DNA of 64,000 bases. It comes from Oceanobacillus damuensis (GTDB lineage Bacteria > Bacillota > Bacilli > Bacillales > Amphibacillaceae). Within the stretch, counting starts at the first letter, position 1; the number at the start of each line of letters is the position of its first letter. The translations under genes were made by a program, and so were the position numbers. Positions 792 through 27,926 of this stretch are shown here, piece by piece. The DNA lies in NCBI RefSeq assembly GCF_001618145.1, contig NZ_LQNF01000003.1, forward strand, positions 186,001-250,000. Reading direction: 5' to 3'. Below the pieces are notes generated by a model. The model was given only the letters and a program-made list of their open reading frames with translations. It did not search any database and was not told where the DNA came from.

Positions 792-821
792 GGTGCCTGT
801 CACTCCCCGAAATATGTGGAA
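792..821 (+). repeat. Interspersed REP-like unit 1
   Basis: Head GGTGCCTGTCACT is intact; the tail is degenerate (CCCCGAAATATGTGGAA). It begins one base after the permease stop codon. Confidence 0.85.
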
Positions 822-897: not shown

Positions 898-927
898 GGT
901 GCCTGTCACTCCCCGAATTTTGTCGAA
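898..927 (+). repeat. Interspersed REP-like unit 2
   Basis: A full consensus 30-bp copy: head GGTGCCTGTCACT then tail CCCCGAATTTTGTCGAA. It lies between the shared terminator and the 3' end of the dipeptidase gene. Confidence 0.9.
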
Positions 928-2416: not shown

Positions 2417-2446
2417 GGTGCCTGTCACTTCCCGGAATTTGTCGAA
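2417..2446 (+). repeat. Interspersed REP-like unit 3
   Basis: Variant with tail TTCCCGGAATTTGTCGAA after head GGTGCCTGTCAC. It lies just upstream of the dipeptidase start and downstream of the SEC-C gene. Confidence 0.88.
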
Positions 2447-3652: not shown

Positions 3653-3720
3653 AGTGCCTGTCACTTCCCGGAATTTGTCGAAAACCGAACAGTGACAGGC
3701 ACCACCCGAATTATGTCGAA
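3653..3720 (+). repeat. 68-bp REP-like dimer (units 4a and 4b)
   Basis: Unit 4a (3653-3682) has the normal head; an 8-base linker AACCGAAC follows; unit 4b (3691-3720) has the head inverted (AGTGACAGGCACC) but the same tail ACCCGAATTATGTCGAA. The two heads can pair with each other as a long hairpin. Confidence 0.92.
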
Positions 3721-5180: not shown

Positions 5181-5202
5181 AACTAACACTCCTTAAAATA
5201 AT

Positions 5203-5231
5203 ATAATACCTTGATACCCTAAATTAAGCAA
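5203..5231 (-). promoter_or_regulatory. Sigma-A type promoter of the AGCS symporter gene
   Basis: On the minus strand TTGCTT (5226-5231) and TATTAT (5203-5208) are separated by exactly 17 bases and lie shortly upstream of the ribosome site. Confidence 0.55.
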
Positions 5232-5244
5232 AACGAACCCTAAC

Positions 5245-5274
5245 GGTGCCTGGCACTCCCCGAATTATGTCGAA
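5245..5274 (+). repeat. Interspersed REP-like unit 5
   Basis: Head variant GGTGCCTGGCACT, in which GTGCCTGGCAC is a perfect odd palindrome, then tail CCCCGAATTATGTCGAA. It lies between the symporter promoter and the 3' end of the BI-1 family gene. Confidence 0.88.
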
Positions 5275-5279
5275 TATTC

Positions 5280-5909: not shown

Positions 5910-5942
5910 AAAAAAAGCACCACTTTCGCTTTCTGAGTATTT

Positions 5943-6010
5943 TTCGACATAATTCGGGTGGTGCCTGTCACTGTTCGGTTTTCGACAAATTTCGGGGAGT
6001 GACAGGCACC
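5943..6010 (-). repeat. 68-bp REP-like dimer (units 6a and 6b), fused to the pdxR 3' end
   Basis: On the minus strand it has the same architecture as 3653-3720: normal unit (6010 to 5981), linker AACCGAAC, then a unit with inverted head (5972 to 5943). It supplies the last codons and the stop of pdxR. Confidence 0.92.
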
Positions 6011-7404
6011 CAGACTTCGAGGAGGTTTGTGATGGCTGTCGGCAGTTCTTCCTCTGGGACGCCGGCAAATCCTAGAATGATTTTCGGCGGATTTTCATAG
6101 TTTTTCCCCAATGAATAGCCTGAAAGGGGGTAAACCTTAATGCCTGCAGCTGTTGCCTTTTGAACGAGCTCATCCTCACACATGCCATTATTGACCGAAA
6201 GTACGATATGCAGTCCAGATCGCTCTCCTATGATGGAAACTGTTTCCTCGTACGGCTTCACCAGCTCTGAAATTTTTTCCAGTTTGCGCCGGTAGATTTT
6301 TCTCATTCGGTTTAAGTGTCTTTCAAAATCTCCCTCTTTCATAAACTGAGCAAGAATATGCTGGTCGATCCGTGAAACAGAAGAATGATAGAATGCCAAC
6401 TCACGCTTATATCGCTTAAGCAACGGTTTAGGCAAAACCATATAACTGATACGCAATGATGGAATCAAAGACTTGGAGAAGGAACCTAAATAAATTACTT
6501 TTCCTGCCTGGTCCATGCTTTTTAAAGATGGTATCGATTTCCCTGTATAACGGAATTCACTGTCATAATCATCTTCTATAATGTACCTGCTTTCTTGCTC
6601 AGCTGCCCAGTTTAATAGCTGTGTCCGCCGATTTACAGAAAGCACAGTACCATACGGAAAATGATGGGACGGTGTCACATAAACGACATCTGGATTTGCT
6701 TTTTCAATTGGCTCGACTTGAATCCCCTCATCGTCAACTTCAAGCGGATAAACATCATTAGGAAAGCTTTTTAAAATTCGAGAAATCAGATGGTAACCCG
6801 GATCTTCGACACCATAAATCGTATCTTTATTGAATAAAAGCAGAAGCTGCTGCAGTAGCACCTCAACCCCAGCTCCTACGATAATAGCTTCCGGTGAACA
6901 CTGCATCCCCCGGGCATGATACAAATAGTTTGATATTTCCTGGCGAAGCGCAAATTCACCTTGTGCATCTCCAAGCAAGAGAAGGGAATGGTTTTGTTTA
7001 TCTATCGTATTTTTTGCATATTTTCGCCACTGTGCAAAGGGGAAATTTTCAGTATCCACCCAGCTTGGATGAAAATTATATCGAATGGTTGACTGCTTTT
7101 CTTCATGGAGCTCATGGTTTGGAGGCACATCTGCTGCCTGCACATATTCCAAATCACCGCTTGCCATGACAAAATAGCCTTTTCGCGGCAGAGATTCTAC
7201 ATAACCCTCAGCAATCAACTGATCATATGCGGTTTCCACGGTATTTTGACTAATATTAAGAAAATCCGCTAGTTTACGTTTAGAAGGAAGTTTGGAGCCA
7301 TATTCCAGACGCCCCTCCGTAATTTCATTTTTTATATAAATATATAACTGCTCGTATAAGGGTAAATCAGTATCTCGGTTTAAATGACAGGATAGCATTT
7401 CCAT
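5968..7404 (-). CDS. pdxR: MocR/GntR-type regulator, probable PdxR
   Basis: A 478-residue MocR protein: winged helix-turn-helix of GntR type (about residues 12-78) joined to a fold-type I aminotransferase-like domain. The PLP lysine is K311 in YLGSFSKSLIPSLR, and IIEDDYDSEFRY carries the usual cofactor Asp/Tyr. It is divergent from pdxS with 127 bases between, the standard arrangement of PdxR, which senses PLP and controls pdxST. An odd point is that the final 13 residues (VPVTPRNLSKTEQ) and the TGA stop are encoded by the repeat dimer, so the native C-terminus has been replaced or extended. Start ATG at 7402-7404, with GGAGG on the minus strand just upstream. Confidence 0.88.
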   Translation of the reverse strand: MEMLSCHLNRDTDLPLYEQLYIYIKNEITEGRLEYGSKLPSKRKLADFLNISQNTVETAYDQLIAEGYVESLPRKGYFVMASGDLEYVQAADVPPNHELHEEKQSTIRYNFHPSWVDTENFPFAQWRKYAKNTIDKQNHSLLLLGDAQGEFALRQEISNYLYHARGMQCSPEAIIVGAGVEVLLQQLLLLFNKDTIYGVEDPGYHLISRILKSFPNDVYPLEVDDEGIQVEPIEKANPDVVYVTPSHHFPYGTVLSVNRRTQLLNWAAEQESRYIIEDDYDSEFRYTGKSIPSLKSMDQAGKVIYLGSFSKSLIPSLRISYMVLPKPLLKRYKRELAFYHSSVSRIDQHILAQFMKEGDFERHLNRMRKIYRRKLEKISELVKPYEETVSIIGERSGLHIVLSVNNGMCEDELVQKATAAGIKVYPLSGYSLGKNYENPPKIILGFAGVPEEELPTAITNLLEVWVPVTPRNLSKTEQ

Positions 7405-7454
7405 AATATTACCTCCATTCCATCTGACCTTATTATTTTTTAAAAAACTGACAC

Positions 7455-7483
7455 TTTCAATAGGTTCACATAGTTTTTATAAT
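7455..7483 (+). promoter_or_regulatory. Candidate promoter of pdxS-pdxT in the pdxR-pdxS interval
   Basis: TATAAT lies at 7478-7483 with only a poor -35 (TTTCAA, 17-base spacing), as expected for an activator-dependent promoter. The octamer AAACTGAC occurs twice around it (7445-7452 and 7506-7513) and could be part of PdxR binding; this last point is a guess. Confidence 0.45.
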
Positions 7484-7531
7484 AAACTACATATTAGAAA
7501 ATTACAAACTGACTTTTAAGGAGTGGGGATA

Positions 7532-8419
7532 TTGGAAAAATTAATAGGCAGTGAAACAGTTAAAAGAGGGATGGCCCAGATGCAAAAAGGTGGCGTCATT
7601 ATGGATGTCGTCAATGCAGAACAGGCAAAAATAGCGGAAGCATCAGGAGCGGTCGCTGTAATGGCCTTGGAAAGAGTACCATCTGACATACGTGCGGCTG
7701 GTGGGGTGGCAAGAATGGCTGACCCGCGAATTGTGGAAGAAGTGTTGAATGCTGTATCCATTCCGGTCATGGCAAAAGCGCGTATCGGCCACATTGTGGA
7801 AGCGAGGGTGCTTGAAGCGATGGGTGTTGACTATATCGATGAAAGTGAAGTACTCACTCCGGCTGATGAAGAATTTCATCTTTTAAAAAGTGACTATACC
7901 GTGCCATTTGTCTGCGGCTGCCGTGATTTAGGTGAAGCCTCCCGACGTATCGGTGAAGGTGCTGCAATGCTTCGTACAAAAGGCGAGCCTGGTACAGGGA
8001 ACATTGTGGAAGCTGTCCGTCATATGCGCAAGGTGCAGGCACAGGTTAGAAAAGTCGTTCACATGAATGATGATGAATTGATGACAGAGGCAAAATTATT
8101 GGGTGCTCCTTATGAAGTTTTAAAACAGATCAGAGCGGAAGGAAAGCTTCCAGTCGTTAACTTTGCTGCCGGTGGTGTAGCAACTCCAGCAGATGCTGCG
8201 TTAATGATGGAGCTTGGCGCGGATGGAGTCTTCGTAGGATCAGGAGTCTTCAAATCGGAAAACCCGGAAAAATTCGCCAGTGCGATTGTTCAGGCAACAA
8301 CTTACTATAATGATTACGAATTAATCGGAAAACTATCAAAAGAACTTGGCAGCGCAATGAAAGGAATCGACATCTCCAAACTATCCGCCGAAGAAAGAAT
8401 GCAAGAACGCGGCTGGTAA
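7532..8419 (+). CDS. pdxS: Pyridoxal 5'-phosphate synthase subunit PdxS
   Basis: A 295-residue TIM-barrel synthase that builds PLP from ribose 5-phosphate, glyceraldehyde 3-phosphate and ammonia delivered by PdxT. Both catalytic lysines are present: MAKARIGH (about K82) and [11 protein letters not shown] (about K150). Sequence is close to the Bacillus enzyme over the full length. I choose the TTG at 7532, eight bases after AAGGAG (7518-7523); the GTG at 7523 lies inside that ribosome site. It is followed by pdxT, with a repeat unit inserted in the 67-base gap. Regulated most likely by the divergent PdxR. Confidence 0.96.
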
Positions 8420-8425
8420 TCGAAC

Positions 8426-8455
8426 AGTGCCTGGCACCACCCGAATTTTGTCGAA
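8426..8455 (+). repeat. Interspersed REP-like unit 7, inside the pdxST operon
   Basis: Inverted-head type: AGTGCCTGGCACC then ACCCGAATTTTGTCGAA, preceded by CGAAC as in the dimer linkers. It sits between the pdxS stop and the pdxT ribosome site and forms a GTGCCTGGCAC palindrome in the transcript. Confidence 0.88.
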
Positions 8456-8486
8456 TATTTTCAGGTTAAAAAGGGGTCGAACAAGT

Positions 8487-9092
8487 ATGGAAAATAAAAT
8501 GAAAACAATTGGTGTTCTTGGACTGCAAGGTGCAGTACAAGAGCATCTAAAACAAATTGAAGCTTTAGGCATGAACGGATTAATTGTGAAAAAGCCTGAG
8601 CAGATGAACGAAATTGACGGCTTAATCATACCAGGCGGGGAAAGTACCGCAATAAAAAACCTGATCGTCAGGTATGGTTTTCTTGCCCCATTAAGAGACT
8701 TTTCTCAAAAAGGAAAACCAATCCTCGGAACGTGTGCAGGCATGGTGCTTCTTGCGAAAGAGATTACGGATACTGACGAATCACATTTAGGTTTGATGGA
8801 TATTAAAGTAAAGCGTAATGCCTATGGAAGACAGCGTGACAGCTTTGAAGTCGATTTAGAAGTGAAAGGGATAGAGGACGTTTTCCCGTCTGTTTTTATC
8901 CGTGCTCCATATATTGAAGCGGTTGGTGGGAATGTGGAAGTCCTGGCCACTTATGAGGACAAGATTGTCGCAGCCCGTCAAGGGAATCTCATGGTCTCAT
9001 CTTTTCATCCTGAATTGACCGCTGATACAAGATTTATCAATTTATTTGCCGAATTGGTTGATGCACCTGCAATGGCCCCGGTTGCCCCATAA
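8487..9092 (+). CDS. pdxT: Pyridoxal 5'-phosphate synthase glutaminase subunit PdxT
   Basis: A 201-residue class I glutaminase that hydrolyses glutamine and channels ammonia to PdxS. Motifs seen: GGEST (50-54), nucleophile C83 in GTCAGM, and H174/E176 in FHPEL. The ATG at 8487 is 10 bases after AAGGGG; an upstream in-frame extension of 20 codons is read from the repeat unit and is rejected. The C-terminus (DAPAMAPVAP) is slightly longer than usual. Second gene of the pdxS-pdxT operon. Confidence 0.95.
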   Translation: MENKMKTIGVLGLQGAVQEHLKQIEALGMNGLIVKKPEQMNEIDGLIIPGGESTAIKNLIVRYGFLAPLRDFSQKGKPILGTCAGMVLLAKEITDTDESHLGLMDIKVKRNAYGRQRDSFEVDLEVKGIEDVFPSVFIRAPYIEAVGGNVEVLATYEDKIVAARQGNLMVSSFHPELTADTRFINLFAELVDAPAMAPVAP

Positions 9093-9118
9093 TTTCAGCA
9101 AAGCCAAATAGATGCCAA

Positions 9119-9143
9119 GTTTAAAATCTCCTGCAGCGGGTAC
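9119..9143 (+). promoter_or_regulatory. Sigma-B type promoter of csbD
   Basis: GTTTAA (9119-9124), 13 bases, GGGTAC (9138-9143). This fits the Bacillus general-stress consensus GTTTAA-N12-14-GGGTAT with one mismatch, and lies 33 bases before the csbD start. Confidence 0.75.
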
Positions 9144-9175
9144 TCGTATATTAACTTCAAATTGGAGGGATTTAT

Positions 9176-9364
9176 ATGGCAGACAATGGTTTTAAAGAAA
9201 AAGCAAAAGGCGCCGGAAATAAAATAAAAGGTGAAGCAAAAGATCAATGGGGCAGTGCAACAAACGACTCCAGCAAAAAGACAGACGGAAAGCTGGATAA
9301 AGTAAAAGGTGAAGTCCAAGATAGTGTTGGGGATAGCAAGAATAATAATGTAAATAATAAGTAA
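9176..9364 (+). CDS. CsbD-like general stress protein
   Basis: A 62-residue, very hydrophilic protein (MADNGFKEKAKGAGNKIKG start) rich in Lys, Gly, Asp and Asn with the GxxKEKxKGxxxKxKG pattern of the CsbD family. CsbD is a sigma-B controlled stress protein of unknown molecular role in B. subtilis, and the sigma-B type promoter at 9119-9143 fits that. The ribosome site GGAGGG is well placed. Monocistronic: a terminator follows at once. Confidence 0.88.
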   Translation: MADNGFKEKAKGAGNKIKGEAKDQWGSATNDSSKKTDGKLDKVKGEVQDSVGDSKNNNVNNK

Positions 9365-9373
9365 GATAACAGA

Positions 9374-9408
9374 AGCCATTGGAGTGGAATCATTCCAATG
9401 GCTTTTTC
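9374..9408 (+). terminator. Intrinsic terminator after csbD
   Basis: AGCCATTGGA pairs with TCCAATGGCT and is followed by TTTTT. Confidence 0.88.
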
Positions 9409-9419
9409 CATCGACAATA

Positions 9420-9449
9420 TTCAACAAAATTCGGGTAGTGACAGGCACT
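9420..9449 (-). repeat. Interspersed REP-like unit 8
   Basis: On the minus strand, AGTGCCTGTCACT then ACCCGAATTTTGTTGAA. An additional partial TCGA tail (9411-9419) lies at its outer side. Confidence 0.82.
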
Positions 9450-9547
9450 CCAGAATGGTTGTATAAGAGTGGTAATTCTGTTAATCTATTTAAAACCATA
9501 CTAAATATATAGGGATTATTACCTTTAACCAAAAGGAGGAATAGGAA

Positions 9548-10447
9548 ATGAGTAAAGTACCTCTCATTGTGAGTACGGAATGGTTGGCTAAAAGGATGGA
9601 TGATCCTAAATTAAGGCTGCTGGACGCTACAACGTTTTTAAAGCAATCCCCTGAAGGTGGCTATTATGATGTTTGGTCAGGAAAGGAAGCATACGAAAAA
9701 GGTCATATTCCAGGTGCGGTATATGCCGATTTACTTGGAGACCTTTCAGATCCAGATTCAGAATACAAATTTACTGTCCCATCGAGAGCAAGATTTGTAA
9801 ATAAAATCAGTGAACTAGGTGTTGGAGATGACACGTATGTGGTGGTGTATGATCAAGGATATGCGGTTGCCGGAGCTCCTGTGATTGCCTCTGATTGGGC
9901 TTCCCGACTTGCATGGCAACTGCGCTACGAAGGGTTTGAAAACGTAGCGGTGCTTGATGGCGGATTTCCTAAGTGGCAAGAAGAAGGGCGGCCTGTTACA
10001 ACAGAGCCAGGTTCTTATCCTCCCGCAACATTTACCGGAGAACGCCGACCAGAACTTTTAGCAACAAAAGAGGACGTGAAAAATGCACTGGACGATGATA
10101 ACGTACTCCTGCTGAATAGCTTATCTGAAGCGGATTTTAAAGGAGAATCAGATACGTATGCAAGAAGCGGCCACATTCCAGGAAGTGTGAATGTATTTTT
10201 CGGTGATCTATCCGATATGGAAACGAAAAAACTTTTCGATGATGAACAGTTACGTGAGAAATTTGAAAAAGCAGGCGCACTGGACCAAAATAAAAAGGTA
10301 ATTACTTATTGCGGAAGCGGAATTGCTGCAACATGGAATGCCCTTGTACTGAATAAACTTGGACAAAATAATGTGGCAATGTATGATGGATCGATGACCG
10401 AATGGGCGGCTGATCCTTCCTTGCCATTACACAAGATTAAAGACTGA
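9548..10447 (+). CDS. Sulfurtransferase with two rhodanese domains
   Basis: A 299-residue tandem rhodanese of the thiosulfate / 3-mercaptopyruvate sulfurtransferase type. The N-terminal, inactive domain spans about 5-145 (GHIPGAVYADLLGDLSD), the catalytic domain about 165-295. The persulfide-forming residue is C255 in YCGSGIAA, a loop more like thiosulfate-type than CGSGVTA mercaptopyruvate-type, so the donor is undecided. ATG after AAAGGAGG. No signal peptide, so cytoplasmic. Flanked on both sides by repeat units and followed by its own terminator. Confidence 0.92.
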   Translation: MSKVPLIVSTEWLAKRMDDPKLRLLDATTFLKQSPEGGYYDVWSGKEAYEKGHIPGAVYADLLGDLSDPDSEYKFTVPSRARFVNKISELGVGDDTYVVVYDQGYAVAGAPVIASDWASRLAWQLRYEGFENVAVLDGGFPKWQEEGRPVTTEPGSYPPATFTGERRPELLATKEDVKNALDDDNVLLLNSLSEADFKGESDTYARSGHIPGSVNVFFGDLSDMETKKLFDDEQLREKFEKAGALDQNKKVITYCGSGIAATWNALVLNKLGQNNVAMYDGSMTEWAADPSLPLHKIKD

Positions 10448-10468
10448 CAAAATGAAACCAAAATAAAA

Positions 10469-10514
10469 GGTTAGCTCTGAAGTTGGGTTTTCACCACAAA
10501 GAGCTAACCTTCTC
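10469..10514 (+). terminator. Intrinsic terminator after the sulfurtransferase gene
   Basis: AAGGTTAGCTCT pairs with AGAGCTAACCTT around a loop of about 20 bases; it may also serve the opposite strand. Confidence 0.8.
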
Positions 10515-10524
10515 ATCGACAATA

Positions 10525-10554
10525 TTCGCCAAAATTCGGGGAGTGACAGGCACC
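10525..10554 (-). repeat. Interspersed REP-like unit 9, forming a stop codon
   Basis: On the minus strand, head GGTGCCTGTCACT then CCCCGAATTTTGGCGAA. Its first G is the last base of the TAG stop of the DUF3006 gene. Confidence 0.88.
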
Positions 10555-10814
10555 TACTTCTTTTTAAATTTACTTCCGCTGCTTTTGGCTCTTAGTTTGG
10601 CCATTAGGTCAGATGATTTCTGCGCTTCTGCCTGTGTGCTGGCAGTATCGACGGAAAGAATGGTATATTCCCCATTATTCTCCTCTACAAGCAAAACAGT
10701 GTTGACTTTGCTTCCCGGTGGTAATTCGCTTTTCTCAACAATAAGCTCGGTTTTATTTTCTTCAACTAGGATGACTGCTTTGTCACCTTCAAAGCGATCA
10801 AGAATCCCCTTCAT
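10554..10814 (-). CDS. DUF3006 family protein
   Basis: An 86-residue protein starting MKGILDRFEGDKAVILVEE, the characteristic opening of DUF3006, a small beta-barrel-like family often encoded next to ComEC-like metallo-beta-lactamase proteins. The C-terminal part (SSDLMAKLRAKSSGSKFKKK) is basic. It lies 92 bases downstream of the MBL lipoprotein gene on the same strand and is probably co-transcribed with it. Its TAG stop overlaps a repeat unit. Function unknown. Confidence 0.8.
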   Translation of the reverse strand: MKGILDRFEGDKAVILVEENKTELIVEKSELPPGSKVNTVLLVEENNGEYTILSVDTASTQAEAQKSSDLMAKLRAKSSGSKFKKK

Positions 10815-10906
10815 ATGTTAACCTCCCTAAAATGATTATCCTCCATAACGAGGTTAGCTATCTGCCAGTTTAACAGACAGTCAGACCAACGCAGTGAAGT
10901 TTTACT

Positions 10907-12232
10907 TTACGTGCACGCTAATCCTTCATTTTTTATATCGGTAATACGGGCAGGGCCAATTCCGCTGATGCGGCTTAACTGATCTACTGAATCATATGGT
11001 CTCAAGTCGATTAAATCCTGTGCTCGTTCTGGTCCAATATGAATAATTCCTTGTACTTCCTCAAATGAAGCGTTATTGATATTGACACAGGAACTGTTGG
11101 AGGGAGTTTCTTCGACAGCTTCTTCCTCAGTCTCACCCTCGTCGGCCTCTGATTTTTCCTCAGCAGGTGGTGCAGAAGCTGGCTCTTCTCCCGGGCTTAC
11201 AGTGCCATCTTTGTTCGTTGCAATGGTATAGTTCTCTCCATCTGAAGTAACGATGATTGTTCCGTTCACATCTGTACCATAAAGGTCGATTCCTGCATTC
11301 TGAATCAATGAAACCACTTCAGCGCTTGGATGTCCATAACTATTATTTTCCCCAGCGCTATAAATGGCAACGGACGGATTCACAGCCTCAATGAATGCGG
11401 GATCACTGGACGTTTTGGAACCGTGATGACCGAGCTGCAGGATATCTGCCTGTATATCAATTCCACTGTTTATCATTTTTAATTCATCACTTCTGCCGGC
11501 ATCACCAGTAAATAAAAATTTTGTGCTGCCATATGTGAAAAGCAATGAAACAGATTCTTCATTTGCTTTCCCTGAGATAGTTTCAGGGTATAGCACATCA
11601 ATTTCAAGCGGGCCAATTTGATATTCTTCCCCTGTTCGCGGTTCATGAAAATCTGCCCCGCTGTTCAGTACTGCTTCGATCCCCCGTTGAAATGTTTGGG
11701 AGGAGCTTTCATTGCCGGACATCCAAACCTCACCGACATCAAACGTATTCACGACTTTATCCAGCTGACCGATATGATCGGCATCCGGGTGGCTCACTAC
11801 AACAAGATCAATGGAGGAAACATTTTGTGCTTGGAGGTAATTAACTACCTCATTCCCTCGCCAATCACCTGTATCGTAAAGAATCGTGTAGGCTTTCCCA
11901 TCATCGGAATACTGAAAAAGCGTTGCATCTGCCTGTCCAACATCCATATAATGAATTTTTAAATCGTCAAATTCTGTTTGACTGATTTCTTCTTTTTCCT
12001 CTGCGGCTGTTTCTGACGCAGCATCATCCTCATTTTCCTTTTCCTCAGGCTCATCGGATGCTTCGGTTTCATTTTTACTTTCATTTTCACTTTCAGAAAC
12101 ATCTTCCGTTTCTGATATAACTTCGGTGCTTGTATCATCCTGACTATCTTCTATCGGTTGTGTTGTGTCCCCTTGTCCACATGCAACAAGGAAAATTGAT
12201 AGAATCATTGCTAATAAAAATTTTATATTCAA
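10907..12232 (-). CDS. Secreted ComEC-like metallo-beta-lactamase-fold lipoprotein with helix-hairpin-helix tail
   Basis: A 441-residue lipoprotein: signal peptide with lipobox LVAC (C18), then an acidic low-complexity linker to about residue 88, then a metallo-beta-lactamase domain (about 92-325) with HPDADH (148-153), GDAG and LGHHGSKTS, resembling the extracellular C-terminal domain of ComEC. A second acidic linker precedes a helix-hairpin-helix pair (about 380-441, NINNASFEEVQGI and ISGIGPARI), like ComEA. It may be a surface nuclease or phosphodiesterase acting on DNA; the competence link is inferred from the domains only. DUF3006 follows. Confidence 0.88.
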   Translation of the reverse strand: MNIKFLLAMILSIFLVACGQGDTTQPIEDSQDDTSTEVISETEDVSESENESKNETEASDEPEEKENEDDAASETAAEEKEEISQTEFDDLKIHYMDVGQADATLFQYSDDGKAYTILYDTGDWRGNEVVNYLQAQNVSSIDLVVVSHPDADHIGQLDKVVNTFDVGEVWMSGNESSSQTFQRGIEAVLNSGADFHEPRTGEEYQIGPLEIDVLYPETISGKANEESVSLLFTYGSTKFLFTGDAGRSDELKMINSGIDIQADILQLGHHGSKTSSDPAFIEAVNPSVAIYSAGENNSYGHPSAEVVSLIQNAGIDLYGTDVNGTIIVTSDGENYTIATNKDGTVSPGEEPASAPPAEEKSEADEGETEEEAVEETPSNSSCVNINNASFEEVQGIIHIGPERAQDLIDLRPYDSVDQLSRISGIGPARITDIKNEGLACT

Positions 12233-12487
12233 TTTTATTCCTCCATAATTTTACAGTCGTCTTTAGCGTATCAAAGATTTTCTGAGAAATCTATGTGATT
12301 CGCCAGTTGAATTTATAAAATCTATGAAAAATAAGTTTTACATATCATTTTGCAAGGAACTATTGCATTTTATCTAGGGGTAAAATTGGTTTTTCCAAGG
12401 TATAAAAGTATCGATTTTTCATTTTTTGGAATGTGCAAGTTTTCAGGACAGTTGGCATAATGGAGAAAATGGAAAGGAGCGATGTGT

Positions 12488-12784
12488 ATGTTAGTTGAAT
12501 TGAACAGCAAACGAAGCATTATCTATTTTCTCTCGGTGATAGTCGGATTGATCGTTTTTTTATTATTCAGTGGCATAGTGTTTTCATATGATGAAGGAAA
12601 CAGAGTAGAGATTACCGGTTTAATCGACCGATTCGAAGATGATTCTGCTGTTATACTTCTGGAAGATATTGGGGAAGAACTGATCCTGCCCCCAGCACTT
12701 CTCCCCCAAAACAGCCAAGACGACACATACCTCAAACTCGAAGTGGTGCCTGTCACTCCCCGAATTATGTCGAAAAATAATTGA
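12488..12784 (+). CDS. Membrane-anchored DUF3006-like protein with repeat-encoded C-terminus
   Basis: A 98-residue protein: one membrane segment (about residues 9-31), then a DUF3006-like stretch (GLIDRFEDDSAVILLEDIGEE) similar to the protein at 10554-10814. The family domain stops early: from about residue 87 the sequence VPVTPRIMSK is the translated repeat unit 12745-12774 and the frame closes at TGA 12782-12784, just before the transposase gene. It is therefore truncated by the repeat. The ATG at 12488 is better spaced from AAGGAG than the one at 12482. Divergent from the MBL lipoprotein gene. Confidence 0.65.
   Translation: MLVELNSKRSIIYFLSVIVGLIVFLLFSGIVFSYDEGNRVEITGLIDRFEDDSAVILLEDIGEELILPPALLPQNSQDDTYLKLEVVPVTPRIMSKNN
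12745..12774 (+). repeat. Interspersed REP-like unit 10, left flank of the transposase gene
   Basis: Consensus head GGTGCCTGTCACT and tail CCCCGAATTATGTCGAA, 27 bases before the transposase start; read through by the DUF3006-like gene. Confidence 0.9.
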
Positions 12785-12801
12785 AAAAGGAGATGGTTTA
12801 T

Positions 12802-13371
12802 TTGCCAAGAAACAAACGATTATGGATTCCCGATACGTACTATCATATAACATCACGAGGAAATCGAAGGGAGCAATTATTCAAGGAAGAAGAAGATTAT
12901 AAGACCTTTTTATCCATTCTGCGCATGATTCATCAAAAAACCCCCTTCAAACTGGCTTCTTATTGTTTGCTATCAAATCACTATCATTTGCTGATGAGCA
13001 CAACCGAGCAACCGATATCCAAAGTAATGGCTTTGGTAAACAAGCGATATGCCGATTATTTCAATACTAAAAATAATGTAAGTGGCCATGTTTTTGAAAA
13101 ACGATACTTTGATAAACCGATTGGTACGGCATATGGTCTGTTGGAAGTAAGCAGGTATATTCATCTAAATCCAGTAAAGGCAGGTATCGTTGAGCGGCCA
13201 GAAACCTATCAATGGAGCAGCTACCGCCACTATTACTACCATTCGAAGGCAGCTTTATTAAATAAACAAGATATATTACAGTACCTCGCTGAAGATGAAA
13301 GTGACCAGAAGAAAAAGTACGAAGAGTTTATGAACAGAACAGACGAAAGTATCATTTTAAGTAAGGTATGA
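12802..13371 (+). CDS. REP-associated tyrosine transposase (RAYT, Y1_Tnp superfamily)
   Basis: A 189-residue single-domain protein with the HUH motif H60-Y-H62 in SNHYHLLM and the proposed nucleophile Y119 in SRYIHLNPVKAG, followed by the usual YQWSSYRHY. These are the marks of RAYTs, relatives of IS200/IS605 transposases that act on palindromic REP sequences and are usually single-copy chromosomal genes. I choose the TTG at 12802, nine bases from AAGGAG, giving the typical opening MPRNKRLWIPDTYYHITSRG; an ATG at 12793 is too close to the ribosome site. Repeat units of opposite orientation lie on both sides (12745-12774 and 13450-13479), making a REPtron-like cassette. Confidence 0.92.
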   Translation: MPRNKRLWIPDTYYHITSRGNRREQLFKEEEDYKTFLSILRMIHQKTPFKLASYCLLSNHYHLLMSTTEQPISKVMALVNKRYADYFNTKNNVSGHVFEKRYFDKPIGTAYGLLEVSRYIHLNPVKAGIVERPETYQWSSYRHYYYHSKAALLNKQDILQYLAEDESDQKKKYEEFMNRTDESIILSKV

Positions 13372-13827
13372 ACTTGCAATTTATGACCTTTCTGCAGGAT
13401 ATTCAACAAATATCAAAGGGATGATTCACTGTCCCTCCTACACAGGATATTCGACAAATTTCGGGAAGTGACAGGCACTCTGATTAGCATGGCATTTAAT
13501 AGGGAACAGTTCAATGTGTGGCAATGAGCTTTCTATCTTGTCAGCACTGATTATTTCGCATACTGCAGGGAGGAAGTCGAAAAAAATCTGGACGCAGCTA
13601 TTTTGGAACAGCATATGGAATCAATGATTTTCAGGTTTTTTTAGTCATATAACAGATAATTATAGATAGATGGAAGGATTGAATTCATACCTAAAAAATT
13701 ACGGCATATATAAAAGGAAGCTAAACAAATCGTTTCCCGGCACTAGTTCAAAGGCATACAATACAGCTTTAATGTTTACCAGAACAGAATAAGAAGAATC
13801 GCGAGCCATCATCAAAGGAGGTAAAGA
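13372..13827. other. Intergenic stretch without a gene, right of the transposase
   Basis: No convincing coding frame. It holds a decayed repeat-like sequence (about 13397-13440, with TTCAACAAATATC and CACTGTCCCTCC), a good unit at 13450-13479, and AT-rich sequence before the ribosome site of the PPK2 gene. I see nothing else. Confidence 0.6.
13450..13479 (-). repeat. Interspersed REP-like unit 11, right flank of the transposase gene
   Basis: On the minus strand, AGTGCCTGTCACT then TCCCGAAATTTGTCGAA; orientation opposite to unit 10. Confidence 0.88.
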
Positions 13828-14586
13828 ATGGAAATCGATCTAACCAAATTGCAGGATGACAAAAAAATGGACAAGGCAACGTATAAGAAACAGCTTGATA
13901 AATACCAAAAAAGATTAATGAGCTTACAAAGGAAAATCGTCGATGAAAACATTGGTGTGATTATCGCGTTTGAAGGTGTTGATGCCGCGGGGAAGGGAGG
14001 GGCGATCAAACGTCTGACATCAGATCTTGACCCACGCGGGATTACAGTTCACCCAATCGCAGCACCAAAACCGCACGAAAAGAGGTACCATTACATGCAG
14101 CGTTTTTGGCGGAAAATTCCTCAATATGGTCAGTTCGGGGTTTTTGACCGTTCTTGGTATGGAAGGGTGCTCGTCGAACGTATTGAAGGTTTTGCAACGA
14201 GTGAGGAATGGCAACGGGCCTATGATGAAATTAATCATTTTGAGAGGCTATTAACGGATGATCACTATATTCTTCTGAAGTTCTGGATTCAGATTTCAAA
14301 AGAAGAGCAGTTAAATCGCTTTGAAAAAAGGCAAAATGACCCACTGAAAAGCTGGAAAATAACAGAGGAGGATTGGCGTAATCGGGAAAAATGGGATGAG
14401 AATTTAACGGCAGCAGAGGAAATGCTCCGTCGTACCGATCACGGTTATGCTCCGTGGATAGTCGTTGAAGGAACGAATAAAAGATATGCCCGTGTCAAGG
14501 TACTTAAAAGTACGGTGAAACACATGGAGAAATATTTTAAAGAAAACGGAATCGATTTACCGGACTATTCTTTATTCGAAAAGTAA
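13828..14586 (+). CDS. Polyphosphate kinase 2 family protein
   Basis: A 252-residue PPK2 kinase that transfers phosphate between polyphosphate and nucleotides. Walker A is EGVDAAGKGGAIKRL (about 49-63), the Walker B region is FGVFDRSWYGRVLVERIEG (D107), and the lid region has the usual Arg/Lys-rich KRQNDPLKSWKI. The single domain and length fit class I or III members that make ATP or ADP from polyphosphate. ATG after AAAGGAGG. Stands alone, convergent with coaW across a terminator. Direction and nucleotide preference cannot be told here. Confidence 0.92.
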   Translation: MEIDLTKLQDDKKMDKATYKKQLDKYQKRLMSLQRKIVDENIGVIIAFEGVDAAGKGGAIKRLTSDLDPRGITVHPIAAPKPHEKRYHYMQRFWRKIPQYGQFGVFDRSWYGRVLVERIEGFATSEEWQRAYDEINHFERLLTDDHYILLKFWIQISKEEQLNRFEKRQNDPLKSWKITEEDWRNREKWDENLTAAEEMLRRTDHGYAPWIVVEGTNKRYARVKVLKSTVKHMEKYFKENGIDLPDYSLFEK

Positions 14587-14619
14587 GTCGGACAAGTGAA
14601 TCTTGCCCGGCTTATTTTT
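14585..14619. terminator. Intrinsic terminator between PPK2 and coaW genes
   Basis: AAGTCGGACAAG pairs imperfectly with CTTGCCCGGCTT across a short loop, then ATTTTTA. Confidence 0.65.
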
Positions 14620-14672
14620 ATACGGATTCACCAGCACTTTAAAGTTGACGGAAGTTATGTTAGCTGGAATGG

Positions 14673-15473
14673 TTAAGAAATCAGTGCACCGATCGCTCCA
14701 GCATATGGTCCTTTTTCAAGAAAAACAGGTTCATATGGCATTATGTTCTGGAAACTGCTTAATGCGTCTTTAAGTGGTTTATTGCCATTTAATGTGCTGC
14801 CAACGAAAACAATTTTCTGCGCATTTTTCATTGCAGCTGCCTGGGTGGCGAGTAAAATGGTTGATTCAGCAATTAATTGTATAAGTGCAGCCATGTGGTC
14901 ATTGGTAGTTGCAAGCTCATGATCATGTGCTTTGCCAAAATTAGCTGCGGTGAGATCACCAAAAAGCGGTGGTACTTCAGGTGCATAGATATCTTTCACC
15001 AATAGATCACTGTTTTCATGTTTCCCATTTGCAGCTGCCTTAACAAGTTCTTTAAATTCCTTTTTGCCAGTGATCAGTGAGCCAAGTCCGATTAATGTGC
15101 CACCGCCAATTCCACTCCCGGTTACTCGTTCAAAATTCGTCTGTGTGACATGGAAAATGGATGTCCCGGTCCCAATACTGACTACAATATAATTATCGAT
15201 CTGACGATGGCTTTCCATGTCGAGTAAATAGCGCGTCCCTTCCACTATTGCCTGAAATTCATCTGCTTGCAGCTGTTTATGTTTCGCGATGGTGGTCATG
15301 TGCCGGCTCTTTCCCCCTGTCATATGTAATTCAGCATCAGGGGTGACATTGTTCAGCCAGTGCACAAGCTTTTCCATTTCCTGATTGGGATAGGTCTTTA
15401 CATGAAGCCTGCCGCGTTCCTCATAGGCAATTTTTATAAGCGTTCCTCCTGCATCAATACCAATTCGTTTCAT
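14673..15473 (-). CDS. coaW: Type II pantothenate kinase CoaW
   Basis: A 266-residue ASKHA-fold kinase that phosphorylates pantothenate, the first step of coenzyme A synthesis. Seen are the phosphate-1 loop GIDAGGTLIKIAY (5-17), the catalytic Glu region (VEGTRYLL), the adenosine loops VSIGTGTSIF and GSGIGGGTLIGL, and the C-terminal PYAGAIGAL. Length and order match the staphylococcal/Bacillus CoaW type rather than CoaA or CoaX. The ATG start is preceded by GGAGG on the minus strand. Divergent from xpaC-telA, with a repeat dimer in the interval. Confidence 0.92.
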   Translation of the reverse strand: MKRIGIDAGGTLIKIAYEERGRLHVKTYPNQEMEKLVHWLNNVTPDAELHMTGGKSRHMTTIAKHKQLQADEFQAIVEGTRYLLDMESHRQIDNYIVVSIGTGTSIFHVTQTNFERVTGSGIGGGTLIGLGSLITGKKEFKELVKAAANGKHENSDLLVKDIYAPEVPPLFGDLTAANFGKAHDHELATTNDHMAALIQLIAESTILLATQAAAMKNAQKIVFVGSTLNGNKPLKDALSSFQNIMPYEPVFLEKGPYAGAIGALIS

Positions 15474-15544
15474 CGATTACCCTCCTCCATTCAACACATT
15501 TCTCTATTTAAACATCATATCGTACACACTCCTCTTCGACAAAA

Positions 15545-15612
15545 TTCAACAAAACCCGGGGAGTGACAGGCACTGTTCGGTTTTCGACATAATTCGGGGA
15601 GTGACAGGCACC
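15545..15612 (-). repeat. 68-bp REP-like dimer (units 12a and 12b) with both heads in the same orientation
   Basis: Read on the minus strand: unit 15612-15583, linker AACCGAAC (15582-15575), unit 15574-15545. Unlike the two other dimers the second head is not inverted. A further tail-like TTCGACAAAA lies at 15535-15544. Confidence 0.9.
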
Positions 15613-15629
15613 AAAAAAGTATGAAACCT

Positions 15630-15658
15630 TTGGCGGGTGGCTATCGTAGTAGTATAAT
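15630..15658 (+). promoter_or_regulatory. Promoter of xpaC-telA
   Basis: TTGGCG (15630-15635) and TATAAT (15653-15658) with 17-base spacing, starting 17 bases after the repeat dimer. Confidence 0.65.
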
Positions 15659-15718
15659 AGAAGGTGTAGTTTTAATTTAACTAAAAATCTATTGGGATTT
15701 TATATAGGAGTGTTGGAG

Positions 15719-16363
15719 ATGAGGGCTGTGTTTCAACTAATGATTCAGTCGATGACAGGTTTCGTCGGTACCGTAGCGACCTGGCTGATCAGTTTTTTTG
15801 CTTTTGAACAAACGTTTCTGCTCTCGAGTTTATTTGCGGTTGCAGGGGGAGCAGTGGTCTATCTCACCTCGAAGCAAATGCTGGATTACCGTTTTGTAAA
15901 GATTAATGGGCTTACAAGACGGGAATATAAATTTATCGAAAATAATCTGAAAGACGCCAAGCGGAAGATTTCACGGCTGCAAAAGGCATTATTCCGGGTT
16001 AGGTCGCTTCAGCATGCAAAGCAGAATCTTGAAATAGCGCGAACTGCTCAAAAGATCTATTCCAATGCAAAAAAAGAGCCAAAGCGTTTTTATCAGGCGG
16101 AGGGATTTTTCTACAATCATCTGGATTCCCTCGTCGAATTAGCTGAAAAATATGCTTACCTCTCTTCTCAGCCGGCGAAAACACGAGAGATGGAACAATC
16201 ACTGCGGAATACCCGCCAGACGGTTTCCATGCTGGGCGAGACAATAAAAAAAGACTTGCACATTATGCTGGATGACGACATCGACACATTGCATTTTGAA
16301 CTGGATGTGGCCAAACAGTCCATTAATAGAACGAACAAGAATAACAGGAGGTTAACGAAATGA
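15719..16363 (+). CDS. xpaC: XpaC-like protein
   Basis: A 214-residue protein resembling Bacillus XpaC, which was first noted through hydrolysis of 5-bromo-4-chloroindolyl phosphate and whose true role is unknown. The N-terminal 55 residues hold two hydrophobic segments; the rest is a charged alpha-helical, probably coiled-coil region. The ATG at 15719 lies eight bases after AGGAG. It overlaps telA by four bases (ATGA), so the two are translationally coupled, as in B. subtilis xpaC-yaaN. Recognised by sequence character plus this gene pair. Confidence 0.82.
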
Positions 16364-17538
16364 GTGAACAAAGCGAACGCCGAGAAAAAACGTCCGAAGA
16401 AATAGATGATTTACTTGCAAATCCGTTTGGCATATTGAAAGATGAAATCCCGGCTGCCCCGGTAGCACAGCGGAATCAGCCAAAGGACAAGCCTGAAAAG
16501 CTAATCAATAAATTAACGGATGAAAATCGGGAGCGGGCAACTCAACTGGCAGAACAAATTGATCCGAAAAATAATCAGTCTATTGCCCAATATGGTACCG
16601 AGGCACAGTCAAAGCTCTTGGATTTTTCACATGGAATGCTTGAACACGTGCAAAATCAGGATGTCGGTGAGATTGGTTCCATCTTAAGTGATCTAATGAA
16701 AAAGCTCGAGCAAGTGAACCCCGATGAATTGAAGCCTGAAAAGCGTGGATTGATTTCCCGTGTATTTGGAAAAATTTCTGGCTCAGTGAATGAAATCCTA
16801 TCCAAATATCAAAAAACCGGTGCACAGATTGACCGAATCAGCGTAAAACTGAATCGCAGCAAAGATGTACTGATGTCTGACAATAGCATGCTAGAGCAGC
16901 TTTTTGAGAAAAACAGAGATTATTATGATGCGCTGAATATTTATATTGCAGCTGGGGAACTAAAGCTGGAGGAGCTTGAGACACAAACCATTCCGGAACT
17001 GAGACGGAAAGCTGAACTAAGTCAAAGTCAGATGGATTTTCAGGAAGTCAATGATATGATGCAGTTTGCTGACCGTCTGGAAAAACGGACACATGATTTG
17101 AAACTGAGCAGACAGATTACGATGCAGAGCGCTCCGCAAATCCGTCTTATCCAAAACACGAACCAAGCACTGGTCGAAAAAATTCAATCTTCCATTCTGA
17201 CAGCTATTCCATTATGGAAAAACCAGGTAGCCATTGCACTCACACTTCTGCGCCAGCGGAATGCGGTCGAAGCACAAAAGCAAGTATCGAAAACGACCAA
17301 TGATTTACTGTTGAAAAATGCGGAAATGCTTAAGACGAATACAGTTGAAACAGCAAGAGAAAACGAACGCGGTCTGATTGATATCGAGACATTAAAGCAG
17401 ACACAGGAACACTTAGTATCAACGATTGAAGAAACAATCCACATTCAAACAGAAGGCCGGGAAAAACGAAACCAGGCCGAACAGGAACTGCAAGGCATGG
17501 AGGAAGAACTCAAACAAAAACTCCTCGAACTTCGTTAG
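16360..17538 (+). CDS. TelA/YaaN family toxic anion resistance protein
   Basis: A 392-residue soluble, almost all-helical protein with the TelA core ([41 protein letters not shown], and [40 protein letters not shown] at about 255-295). Family members are linked to tellurite or cell-envelope stress resistance and often co-occur with XpaC-type membrane partners. Starts inside the xpaC stop (ATGA overlap). The stop TAG shares its last two bases with a repeat unit, followed by a terminator. Confidence 0.9.
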
Positions 17539-17566
17539 TGCCTGTCACTCCCCGAATTTTGTCGAA
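17537..17566 (+). repeat. Interspersed REP-like unit 13, overlapping the telA stop codon
   Basis: AGTGCCTGTCACT then CCCCGAATTTTGTCGAA. The AG of the telA TAG stop is the beginning of the unit. Confidence 0.9.
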
Positions 17567-17576
17567 ATTAGTATGG

Positions 17577-17615
17577 TCGGCGATTCTCCATAAACGGAGG
17601 GTCGCCGATTTTTGT
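17577..17615 (+). terminator. Intrinsic terminator of xpaC-telA
   Basis: TCGGCGA pairs with TCGCCGA, with inner CTCC/GGAG pairing, then TTTTTG. Confidence 0.85.
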
Positions 17616-17797
17616 ATACGCTCAATTTCATTTGCTTCTTGAAAATGATATGATGGTATAATAAATCTCTTCTGACTTTATGTATCGCAGCCATCCATGC
17701 GAAAATACAAAACATCCATCTTCCTCCAAGTAATACTAATATATTCAGTAGCATGGTAACATCCTAATAGAAGACGCAGAAAAAGGAGAGTGACATC

Positions 17798-19018
17798 ATG
17801 ACAAAAAATGACCCGAAAATGATGACAGAGAAAGATAAAAAAAGCAGAAGAAATTCGTTGATTGGTGCCGCTTTTCTGATGGCAACATCAGCAGTCGGAC
17901 CAGGATTTCTGACACAGACTGCCGTTTTTACGGAAACACTTCTTGCAAGCTTTGGGTTTGTAATTTTAGCTTCCATATTTTTAGATATTGGTGCACAGCT
18001 GAATGTATGGCGGATTATTGTTGTATCAAAGAAACGGGGGCAGGAAATAGCCAACGCTGTTTTACCTGGATTAGGATTTGTTGTAGCGATTTTCATTGTG
18101 ATTGGCGGACTTGCTTTCAACATCGGAAATATTGGTGGTGCAGGGCTTGGTACAAATGTACTGTTTGGATTTGACCCGAGAGTAGGAGCAATCATCACTG
18201 CAGCCATTGCGATTTTTATATTTTTATCCAAAGAAGCCGGTGCTGCGATGGACCAGATTGTGAAGTGGCTCGGTGGCATATTGATTATTTTGATTGCCTA
18301 TGTGATGTTCGTCAGCCAGCCACCGGTAGGAGAAGCGATTTATCGGTCTTTCGTTCCTTTAGAACTTGATTTTTATGCAATCATTACGATTGTTGGTGGT
18401 ACAGTCGGCGGATATATTACTTTTTCCGGTGGCCATCGCTTATTGGATGCAGGAATTTCAGGGAAGGAAAGCATACCTGAGGTTAATCGGACATCTGTCA
18501 TGGGGATTTTAGTGGCATCCTTTATCCGGATTATGCTTTTCCTTGCTGTGCTCGGTGTCGTTTCTGCTGGTGTGAGCTTGAATCCGGAAAATCCCGCAGC
18601 AACGGTGTTTCAGTATGCTGCCGGAGAAATCGGCTACCGAATGTTCGGGCTCGTTCTATGGGTTGCAGGGATCACTTCTGTAATCGGGGCAGCGTATACT
18701 TCCGTGTCATTTCTAAGGTCGTTTCACGGAAAAATTGAAAAACATTACAGATATTGGATTATCGGTTTTATTATATTTTCAACAACTGTTTTTGTTTTTG
18801 TCGGCCAAGCAGTAACGCTGCTCGTCCTGGCTGGTGCTGTAAACGGATTGATTTTGCCATTGACTTTGGGATGTATTCTGTTGGCTGCACATAATTCGAA
18901 AATTGTCGGTGATTACAAGCACCCCGTCTGGCTGACCGTGTTTGGTGCAATTGTTGTTATCTTAACAGCATATCTCGGAATCAGAACACTGCTCCAAACA
19001 TTGCCGCAATTGTTTTAG
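17798..19018 (+). CDS. ycsG: NRAMP-like transporter of the YcsG type
   Basis: A 406-residue protein with about eleven membrane segments and an NRAMP-like opening AFLMATSAVGPGFLTQTAVF (about 25-44). In B. subtilis YcsG belongs to the cluster with ycsF, kipI, kipA and ycsI, the same genes found just downstream here. The metal-binding DPGN of true NRAMP carriers is not visible (GPGFLTQT instead), which argues against metal transport and for an organic substrate, possibly 5-oxoproline; that is inference from position. ATG after AAAGGAG. Confidence 0.82.
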   Translation: MTKNDPKMMTEKDKKSRRNSLIGAAFLMATSAVGPGFLTQTAVFTETLLASFGFVILASIFLDIGAQLNVWRIIVVSKKRGQEIANAVLPGLGFVVAIFIVIGGLAFNIGNIGGAGLGTNVLFGFDPRVGAIITAAIAIFIFLSKEAGAAMDQIVKWLGGILIILIAYVMFVSQPPVGEAIYRSFVPLELDFYAIITIVGGTVGGYITFSGGHRLLDAGISGKESIPEVNRTSVMGILVASFIRIMLFLAVLGVVSAGVSLNPENPAATVFQYAAGEIGYRMFGLVLWVAGITSVIGAAYTSVSFLRSFHGKIEKHYRYWIIGFIIFSTTVFVFVGQAVTLLVLAGAVNGLILPLTLGCILLAAHNSKIVGDYKHPVWLTVFGAIVVILTAYLGIRTLLQTLPQLF

Positions 19019-19025
19019 GGGCAGT

Positions 19026-19056
19026 TTGAAAAGCGTCTAATAAAAAATGTTATAAT
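19026..19056 (+). promoter_or_regulatory. Possible promoter before pxpB
   Basis: TATAAT at 19051-19056 and TTGAAA at 19026-19031; the spacing of 19 bases is longer than ideal. It could let the pxp genes be read separately from ycsG. Confidence 0.4.
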
Positions 19057-19108
19057 ATAAAGAGGATAATGAGTAAATCCTCTTAATCTTTATGATGGTG
19101 GGATACGA

Positions 19109-19831
19109 ATGTTACAAATAACTGCTTATGGGGATGCAGGCCTGCGGGTTGATTTTGGAAACACTATTTCCGAAGAGATAAATGAAAAAATCCGGAGCTT
19201 TTGCATGTACCTTGAAAAAGAACAGATACCAGGTGTCATCGAATGGATTCCAACATATACGGCGGTTTCCATAGTCTATGACCCGTATCTTATTTTATTT
19301 GATGAATTAAAAAAGCGAATAAAATTGATGGAGGATCAGCTTTCCAATCTAGATCTGCCTGCAGCAGAGGTCGTGCATATTCCTGTGCTTTACGGGGGAG
19401 AAAAAGGTCCAGATCTTTTACGGGTTGCACAAAGAAATGGGCTTTCAGAAGAGGAAGTCATCTCAGTTCACACCGGAACAGACTACTTAATCTACATGAT
19501 GGGCTTCATTCCAGGTTTTCCTTATCTTGGAGGTATGTCAAAAAAAATTGCCGCACCGAGGTTATCCAATCCGAGGGAGGCAATTCCAGCCGGGTCAGTG
19601 GGAATCGCGGGCGAACAGACCGGAATATATCCGCTCGATTCACCGGGTGGCTGGCAAATCATTGGACAAACCCCAGTGACCATCTATGATCCGAATCGGG
19701 AGCAGCCAATTTTGCTTCGTGCGGGAAATTATATACGTTTCGTTCCAATTACTTCGGAGGAATTTGACAGGATTGAGGCGGAAGTCAAAGCGGGAAGCTA
19801 CATTACTCATGTCGAAAAATATAAAAAATAA
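19109..19831 (+). CDS. pxpB: 5-oxoprolinase subunit PxpB (KipI)
   Basis: A 240-residue KipI/PxpB protein. Motifs seen are GDAGLRVDFG at the start, HTGTDYLIYMMGFIPGFPYLGGM (about 130-152), and the cyclophilin-like PGGWQIIGQTPV. With PxpA and PxpC it forms the ATP-dependent 5-oxoprolinase that opens 5-oxo-L-proline, a spontaneous glutamine breakdown product, to glutamate. KipI of B. subtilis was also described as an inhibitor of the sporulation kinase KinA. First of three tightly packed pxp genes; the gap to pxpA is 18 bases. Confidence 0.93.
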   Translation: MLQITAYGDAGLRVDFGNTISEEINEKIRSFCMYLEKEQIPGVIEWIPTYTAVSIVYDPYLILFDELKKRIKLMEDQLSNLDLPAAEVVHIPVLYGGEKGPDLLRVAQRNGLSEEEVISVHTGTDYLIYMMGFIPGFPYLGGMSKKIAAPRLSNPREAIPAGSVGIAGEQTGIYPLDSPGGWQIIGQTPVTIYDPNREQPILLRAGNYIRFVPITSEEFDRIEAEVKAGSYITHVEKYKK

Positions 19832-19849
19832 CGATGGGAGAGAGATACG

Positions 19850-21574: not shown

Positions 21575-21594
21575 TTGTAGATTTAAGTGAGGAA

Positions 21595-21678: not shown

Positions 21679-21745
21679 AACAATGTTCACAATTTCAAAA
21701 GCCATAATAGTAATAATACATTCATCTCAACAAGGAGGCCTTCGC

Positions 21746-27888: not shown

Positions 27889-27926
27889 GTGCCTGTCACT
27901 CCCCGGATTTTGTCGGTATTTGTCGA
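27888..27926 (+). repeat. Interspersed REP-like unit 14, overlapping the SDR stop; last copy in the window
   Basis: Head GGTGCCTGTCACT, tail CCCCGGATTTTGTCGG, then a second partial tail TATTTGTCGAA. No copy was found from here to the end of the window. Confidence 0.88.

Follow-up and report, generated by a model that had tools for sequence, protein, structure and literature searches.

We describe here a REPtron-like cassette in the window (the whole 64,000-nt stretch of the Oceanobacillus damuensis genome that was analysed), in which a gene for a REP-associated tyrosine transposase (RAYT) is bracketed by inverted copies of a short dispersed repeat. It is best read, with a probability of about 0.7, as a single-copy, domesticated HUH/Y1 transposase accompanied by its cognate short repeat. 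The gene and its flanking repeats are REPtron-like in anatomy, and TIRtron-like in having no GTAG tag. Gene-repeat partnerships of the RAYT/REP type are best described in Gram-negative bacteria.

The RAYT gene and its flanking repeats

The cassette comprises the following features, G075 being a relative that is co-linear with positions 1-20000 of the window.

12745..12774 (+), upstream repeat unit with its sharp GTGCC edge facing outward; matched by a unit at the equivalent place in G075
12802..13371 (+), RAYT, with HUH motif HYH and Tyr119; matches to Pfam, NCBIfam and 4er8, invariant residues
13395..13434 (-), degenerate second downstream copy, in direct repeat with 13443-13462 at a spacing of 48
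13450..13479 (-), downstream repeat unit, inverted, sharp edge outward; counterpart in G075

The RAYT is encoded by a single plus-strand ORF of 189 aa with a TTG start (12802-13371). ORFs were called mechanically, with at least 80 aa, and the program-made ORF spanned 12781..13371; the start was set to TTG 12802 because relatives align from residue 8 on and because AAAGGAG precedes this TTG. By family and by fold, the protein is a RAYT. It possesses a Y1 HUH transposase core, with the HYH motif (SNHYHL) at residues 60-62 and Tyr119 within SRYIHLNP, and SRYIHLNPVKAG is present. It matched Pfam Y1_Tnp (5.5e-15) and exceeded the cut-off of the NCBIfam equivalog for REP-associated tyrosine transposases (NF047646, 88.9 bits vs 80), while H60, H62 and Y119 were invariant in an alignment with 20 relatives. 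E. coli TnpA-REP (4er8) was the top solved-structure match, both by sequence and by fold. The RAYT identity, with HYH and Tyr, proposed in the initial annotation was thus confirmed. A PHROGs search gave one matching family (7.1e-6), for which function is listed as unknown. Genomes of the family commonly contain a further group of RAYT-like proteins (about 250-300 aa, about 30% identity); G071 has a member together with 0 repeats of the present pattern, and G081 a member together with 21.

The flanking units, 12746-12774 (+) and 13450-13478 (-), form arms of 29 nt that are 90% complementary, so that the RAYT is indeed bracketed by inverted copies of one repeat, the same that is dispersed in the genome. 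The distances initially annotated (27 bases upstream, about 80 downstream) were also right, the upstream unit ending 27 nt before 12802 and the downstream unit starting 78 nt past the RAYT stop. The GGGGAG said to precede the repeat was found at the upstream copy, but the downstream copy reads GGGAAG. As a side observation, the DUF3006 ORF 12482-12784 ends in the upstream unit, the repeat thus encoding its C-terminus, and its counterpart in G075 (123 aa) likewise takes its last residues from the unit.

Such an anatomy may also be that of an insertion sequence, the 733-bp cassette then having terminal inverted repeats and the dispersed units being its solitary ends or remnants of MITE type, mobilised by an IS200-type transposase. 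This seems unlikely to us. Inverted 29-nt ends do surround the RAYT, and TIRtrons with dispersed TIR families are described by Di Nocera 2013 (PMC3733652). However, the genome holds one Y1 transposase gene and one copy of the cassette, no second complete one being seen, and the equivalog model matched is REP-associated. Moreover, the cassette occupies the same locus in G075 (the comparison being between species), as for a vertically kept gene.

Inverted bracketing is one arrangement among several and is not general. Among named Bacillaceae RAYT loci (the best 80 of 427), 73 contained a total of 247 unit matches (1 with the reversed pattern), with 47 plus and 17 minus matches upstream of the RAYT (at most 350 nt) and 19 minus and 15 plus matches downstream (at most 450 nt); the quasi-palindromic core sometimes matches on both strands, which enters some elements twice in the denominators of these 80 loci, of the hairpin arms and of the stop codons. 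The inverted flanking pair of the present unit was found at 13 of these 80 loci.

A dispersed repeat family that is mostly single and folds poorly

The consensus [R]GTGCCTGTCACTYCCCGAATTWTGTCGAA was found both in the inverted flanking copies and in the genome. In the window, 16 matches to its core, GTGCCTGTCACT, have no more than 1 mismatch (15 exact), against 0.15 expected, and a 19-mer with up to 3 mismatches has 104 copies in the genome (54 forward, 50 reverse), against 1 for the reversed-pattern control. A logo of 83 copies, drawn from the window and from 20 other stretches of the same genome (328 kb) that were picked because they bear units, gave the consensus [R]GTGCCTGTCACTYCCCGRWTTTTGTCGAA. 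The left (GTGCC) edge is sharp, with a purine at position -1 in 82 of the 83 copies and a near-background flank from -2 on. The right edge is ragged and fading, and a second TTTGTCGA appears in a subset. Beyond the cassette, the window contains these units.

793..821 (+), dispersed unit, 2 nt after the stop of ORF 11-790
899..927 (+), dispersed unit, just past an inverted repeat with a T-run
2418..2446 (+), dispersed unit; at the same junction G075 has three extra genes between direct units
3654..3720 (+), 67-nt dimer, with AACCGAACA joining its two cores; dimer in G075 too
5246..5274 (+), dispersed unit, GTGCCTGGCAC core
5943..6009 (-), 67-nt dimer
8427..8455 (+), dispersed unit, CGAACA left arm, 7 nt after a stop codon
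9420..9448 (-), dispersed unit
10525..10553 (-), dispersed unit, left edge directly after the TAG of the DUF3006-like ORF 10554-10814 (-)
15545..15611 (-), tandem dimer
17538..17566 (+), dispersed unit overlapping the G of a stop TAG, before a terminator; site empty in G070 and G073
27889..27917 (+), dispersed unit immediately following a stop TAG

Dimers of 67 nt, in which a second core is joined via AACCGAACA, form a subset in this genome. Most cores are singlets (171 of 207 in stretches of seven genomes have no other core within 100 nt), and the inverted doublet that characterises REPINs is not the main dispersed unit. The palindrome attributed to the repeat in the initial annotation proved weak: on neither strand did a single consensus unit fold better than its shuffled versions (z -0.23 and +0.30), and the stable palindrome of GTAG REPs is absent from the monomer. 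Folding was clear for dimers and for the AACCGAACA palindrome (z -5.7 to -7.3), and the palindrome AAACCGAACAGTGCCTGGCACTGTTCGGTTT also folds well. The window had no Rfam match at the gathering score. A near-perfect palindrome, AACCGAACAGTGCC(A/T)GGCACTGTTCGGTT, which has the family core and occurs at L155:11253, L155:19062 and L154:19335, may be another form of the repeat family. Unit-like matches also exist outside the family, in G161 (same order, other family). The letters at +11/+12 of the unit vary by genome (TT in G152 and G060, GC in G153, CA in G063, TC in O. damuensis), as if copies had been homogenised within each genome.

Co-occurrence and crowding link the gene to the repeat

The initial annotation expected this RAYT clade and this repeat to occur together, and held genomes with the repeat but no such RAYT to be evidence against their partnership. 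Co-occurrence was evaluated in 159 genomes of the family, one per species, with counts read by hand; the clade was defined by a best match of at least 175 bits and repeat-bearing genomes by at least 8 copies, both cuts being set after seeing the lists. The two largely coincide, at least 8 repeats being found in 27/39 genomes with the clade vs 6/120 without it (Fisher p 1e-15, uncorrected for kinship) and, within the genus, in 6/7 vs 3/21 (p 0.0014). The expectation failed in the 12 of the 39 clade genomes that had fewer than 8 pattern matches. Genomes with the repeat but without the clade do exist, and are few. RAYT fragments, consistent with gene loss, persist in four of the six (G054, G056, G090 and G103). 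The other two have none of this clade: G067 carries 15 copies and no RAYT match, and G081 carries 21 copies and only a longer, 31%-identical relative.

Copies are also crowded round the RAYT, and the link between gene and repeat is supported by this crowding as well as by co-occurrence. In a rotation test of copies within 50 kb of the gene, leaving out those closer than 1.5 kb, p was below 0.05 in four of seven genomes (0.020, 0.176, 0.101, 0.017, 0.024, 0.136 and 0.022; combined 8e-5), the "gene" of G090 being a fragment. This test and that of local similarity covered genomes other than G056 (90 copies, RAYT fragment) and the O. damuensis draft, and only contig C1 of G063 and G045 (25/37 and 19/25 copies, respectively). 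In O. damuensis, 23 copies besides the flanking pair lie within 50 kb of the RAYT, where about 2.4 would be expected if uniform, according to a hand count with 100 of the 104 copies listed. Other clusters of units lie far from the RAYT too. Neighbouring copies resembled one another in Mantel tests of G152 (p 0.0004), G153 (p 0.003) and G090 (p 0.047), and these tests were not significant in G117, G118, G063 and G045; local similarity is a hint only.

A replication-strand bias of the units was considered and not adopted: 70 of 117 pooled units were co-directional with the fork (p 0.04), a result driven by G152, the five genomes giving 32/44, 12/22, 9/20, 14/22 and 3/9, with the terminus taken at mid-genome for G153 and G118. 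A dif search with a B. subtilis 28-mer found a site in four of seven genomes.

Stem arms instead of a GTAG tag

The GGAG before the repeat had been likened to the GTAG tag of other REPs, a comparison that was not supported. No GT[AG]G tetranucleotide at a hairpin foot appears in the unit logo, and where an element has both arms, as a minority do, GGGNN pairs with NNCCC as a stem. Left flank and right arm paired at 5 or more of 6 positions in 11/43 RAYT-proximal upstream units vs 20/141 others and 19/113 in O. damuensis, some elements being counted twice in these denominators. The paired arms vary by species (GGGAA/TTCCC, GGGGC/GCCCC, GGGTG/CACCC), so that a minority of elements has a true hairpin, of which the GGGGA once likened to GTAG is a stem arm. 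Furthermore, residues W94, Q95 and R104 of E. coli TnpA-REP, named as those of GTAG recognition in PMC6006769, are replaced by F, E and G in the present RAYT (pairwise alignment). Where +11 was T, position -1 was a purine in 212 of 214 cases, and where +11 was G it was mostly C (12/18), in a table of pairs whose named loci overlap the genome stretches (e.g., L091/G063 and L072/G060); -1/+11 is thus a closing pair, retained even in one-armed units. Pairing of TYCCCG with the left flank was considered as a means of target choice and not adopted: beyond -1, an excess of pairing was present in G152, G063, G060 and the named set, and absent in O. damuensis (p 0.54), G045 and G075.

Placement after stop codons

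Units often lie immediately after genes. Stop abutment, defined as a left edge lying between -3 and +7 nt relative to the stop codon of an ORF on the same strand and evaluated on non-intragenic matches, some of them representing one element twice, was observed for 25/90 in O. damuensis (null 2.4%, p 8e-20), 9/19 in G063 (null 1.7%, p 9e-12) and 4/15 in G045 (null 2.9%, p 7e-4). It was weak in G152 (3/48, null 1.6%, p 0.04) and G153 (1/8, null 2.8%, p 0.2). The mirror arrangement, in which a convergent ORF has its stop at the right edge, occurred twice in O. damuensis. The three forward frames of the unit contain no stop codon, and the abutting stops are therefore not the unit's own, save where its first G completes TAG. 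Some units adjoin intrinsic terminators, for instance at 655818 in G063, where the same gene pair in G060 is unit-free.

In 16 of 322 copies, the unit is preceded by a tandem stutter made of 7-12 nt of flank and GTGCC, GTGCCT or GTGCCTGT (at L180, L184, L145, L176, L118, L153 and other loci). The flank letters differ each time, and no stutter appeared in the controls (20 shuffled, 20 with random flanks). These stutters are compatible with aborted joining and also with ordinary slippage at an imperfect hairpin.

Empty sites in relatives

Positions 1-20000 of the window are co-linear with G075, G070 and G073. The RAYT and units are present in G075, while G070 and G073 have 0 RAYT matches and 0 repeat matches genome-wide. 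At 17538, the unit has a stop codon on one side and a terminator on the other; in G070 and G073 this terminator directly follows the stop, after a spacer of about 8 nt, and in the window about 10 nt separate it from the unit. The spacer of these relatives thus persists between the unit and the terminator, which at this one site agrees better with insertion at the stop than with a left flank eroded as far as the stop codon.

Units have same-gap counterparts in O. damuensis and G075, and are strongly conserved where the flanks diverge. Nine orthologous units of this pair were no closer to each other than non-orthologous ones (p 0.59), from which the dispersed copies would be old or homogenised and not demonstrably new insertions. 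The ORF 14673-15473 has a counterpart in G075 that is split into 184 and 81 aa (21338-22134, L205+L206, reverse), perhaps through a frameshift or an assembly error.

These shared, conserved units and their sense-strand stop abutment might be taken to indicate a host 3'-end element, i.e., an RNA or DNA signal after stops kept under selection, the RAYT being a bystander. We regard this as quite improbable, considering the co-occurrence with the RAYT clade and the crowding round its gene, the absence of units from syntenic genomes having the same genes, and a window without Rfam match in which the single unit has no stable fold.

One unit at 2418 in the window corresponds to four direct units enclosing three genes in G075. 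At C1:656725-658547 of G063 (L174), an abhydrolase gene and an SDR gene, each then a unit, stand between M55 and M20 peptidase genes; in G060, the M55 gene is closely trailed by a short M20-like match instead. Such arrangements, with two genes standing between neighbours adjacent in G060 and three genes missing at a single-unit junction, could suggest that the units are recombination sites which, in the manner of integron attC, mobilise gene cassettes. This reading is highly improbable: the enclosed genes are ordinary enzymes, and the 368-aa gene of the G075 trio, not among the ORFs of the window, is also present in the unit-less G070 and G073 (63-64% identical), which points to deletion in the window rather than cassette gain. 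The simplest reading of the genes missing at 2393-2452, compared with 4436-8718 of G075 (L205+L206, reverse), would be a deletion between direct units.

Proposed mechanism

Under the preferred reading of a domesticated RAYT and its cognate repeat, the enzyme would most likely act on single-stranded repeat DNA, cutting it at its fixed GTGCC edge via a 5'-phosphotyrosine and joining it to a target strand. Copies would arise mostly near the RAYT gene, with one exact and one ragged end, the exact end in many cases being placed, on the coding strand, immediately behind a stop codon. HUH/Y1 enzymes produce a 5'-phosphotyrosine and a free 3'-OH, and strands are rejoined, as described in PMC8266576. 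Joining at one exact end is proposed because a fixed edge lies beside a variable target and the far edge is ragged.

Characterised RAYTs bind folded REPs, whereas the single unit has no better-than-chance hairpin; the substrate proper may be this one-armed unit or the less common hairpin and dimer forms. A more specific possibility, which we put forward tentatively and with more doubt than confidence, is that the dispersing entity is this hairpin-poor single half-REP and not a hairpin doublet. The RAYT would then transfer one end at a time, the fixed 5' GTGCC end being joined to the coding strand right after stops and the 3' end remaining ragged, mostly within tens of kb, and aborted attempts would leave the stutters of 7-12 nt of target plus GTGCC(TGT). 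Sharp and ragged edges, stop abutment, crowding and stutters, all observed, would thus share a common origin in one RAYT reaction.

How REPs spread is stated to be unresolved in PMC8266576. The Bacillaceae RAYT would provide a second, tag-less system for one-ended transfer, post-stop target choice and short-range spread. Its assets for testing are a repeat whose copies can be counted, relatives of matching gene order with empty sites, many independent species and the proximity of the tractable host B. subtilis. It also carries a warning, namely that repeat-mediated deletions occur at such units.

Comparison with known systems

A literature search, partly poorly aimed, found no description of a RAYT-repeat pair in the Gram-positive Bacillaceae, and an 11-mer of the repeat sought in papers matched only human and animal primers. 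IS200/IS605 elements (IS608, ISDra2) share the catalytic fold of RAYT, but here there is no multi-copy mobile element and the product model is REP-associated. The E. coli REPtron (TnpA-REP/RAYT and REP; 4er8) differs in that the present system has no GTAG tag, its contact residues W94, Q95 and R104 being replaced, and in that the present unit is short of one stem arm, does not fold and occurs mostly as singlets. As in REPINs (PMC3116915, PMC8049555), a short repeat is dispersed together with a RAYT and some dimers have inverted cores; however, REPIN doublets are the mobile unit and singlets are described as immobile remnants (Bertels and Rainey, 2011, PMC3116915; PMC8049555), and singlets predominate here.

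The most striking habits of the present repeat, crowding and 3'-end placement, have Gram-negative precedents. According to Nunvar 2010 (PMC2817692), REPs accumulate near rayt, within 200 kb, in three marine gammaproteobacteria and Thauera, which gives crowding round the RAYT a precedent; the present case differs by its phylum, by its repeat and by additional clusters far off. In P. fluorescens SBW25, REP spacing showed no departure from randomness above 200 bp (PMC3116915). Stop abutment has its precedent in the REPs located near ORF 3' ends, with GTAG termini supplying TAG, that Di Nocera 2013 (PMC3733652) describes.

The closest likeness in anatomy is with TIRtrons/TIRYTs as presented by Di Nocera 2013 (PMC3733652), in which a RAYT-like gene lies between long inverted non-GTAG repeats belonging to a moderately abundant dispersed family with dimers. 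The present cassette has the same constitution, a RAYT-like gene between TIRs that are unrelated to GTAG REPs and are dispersed. It departs from the GGGGWSAS motif, common to some TIRs only, GGGGAGTG differing at position 7, and Bacillaceae are unnamed in the accessible text of Di Nocera 2013 (PMC3733652). The present case extends the RAYT/repeat partnership to Bacillaceae; the repeat involved is unusual, lacking a strong hairpin and being frequently located just behind stop codons.
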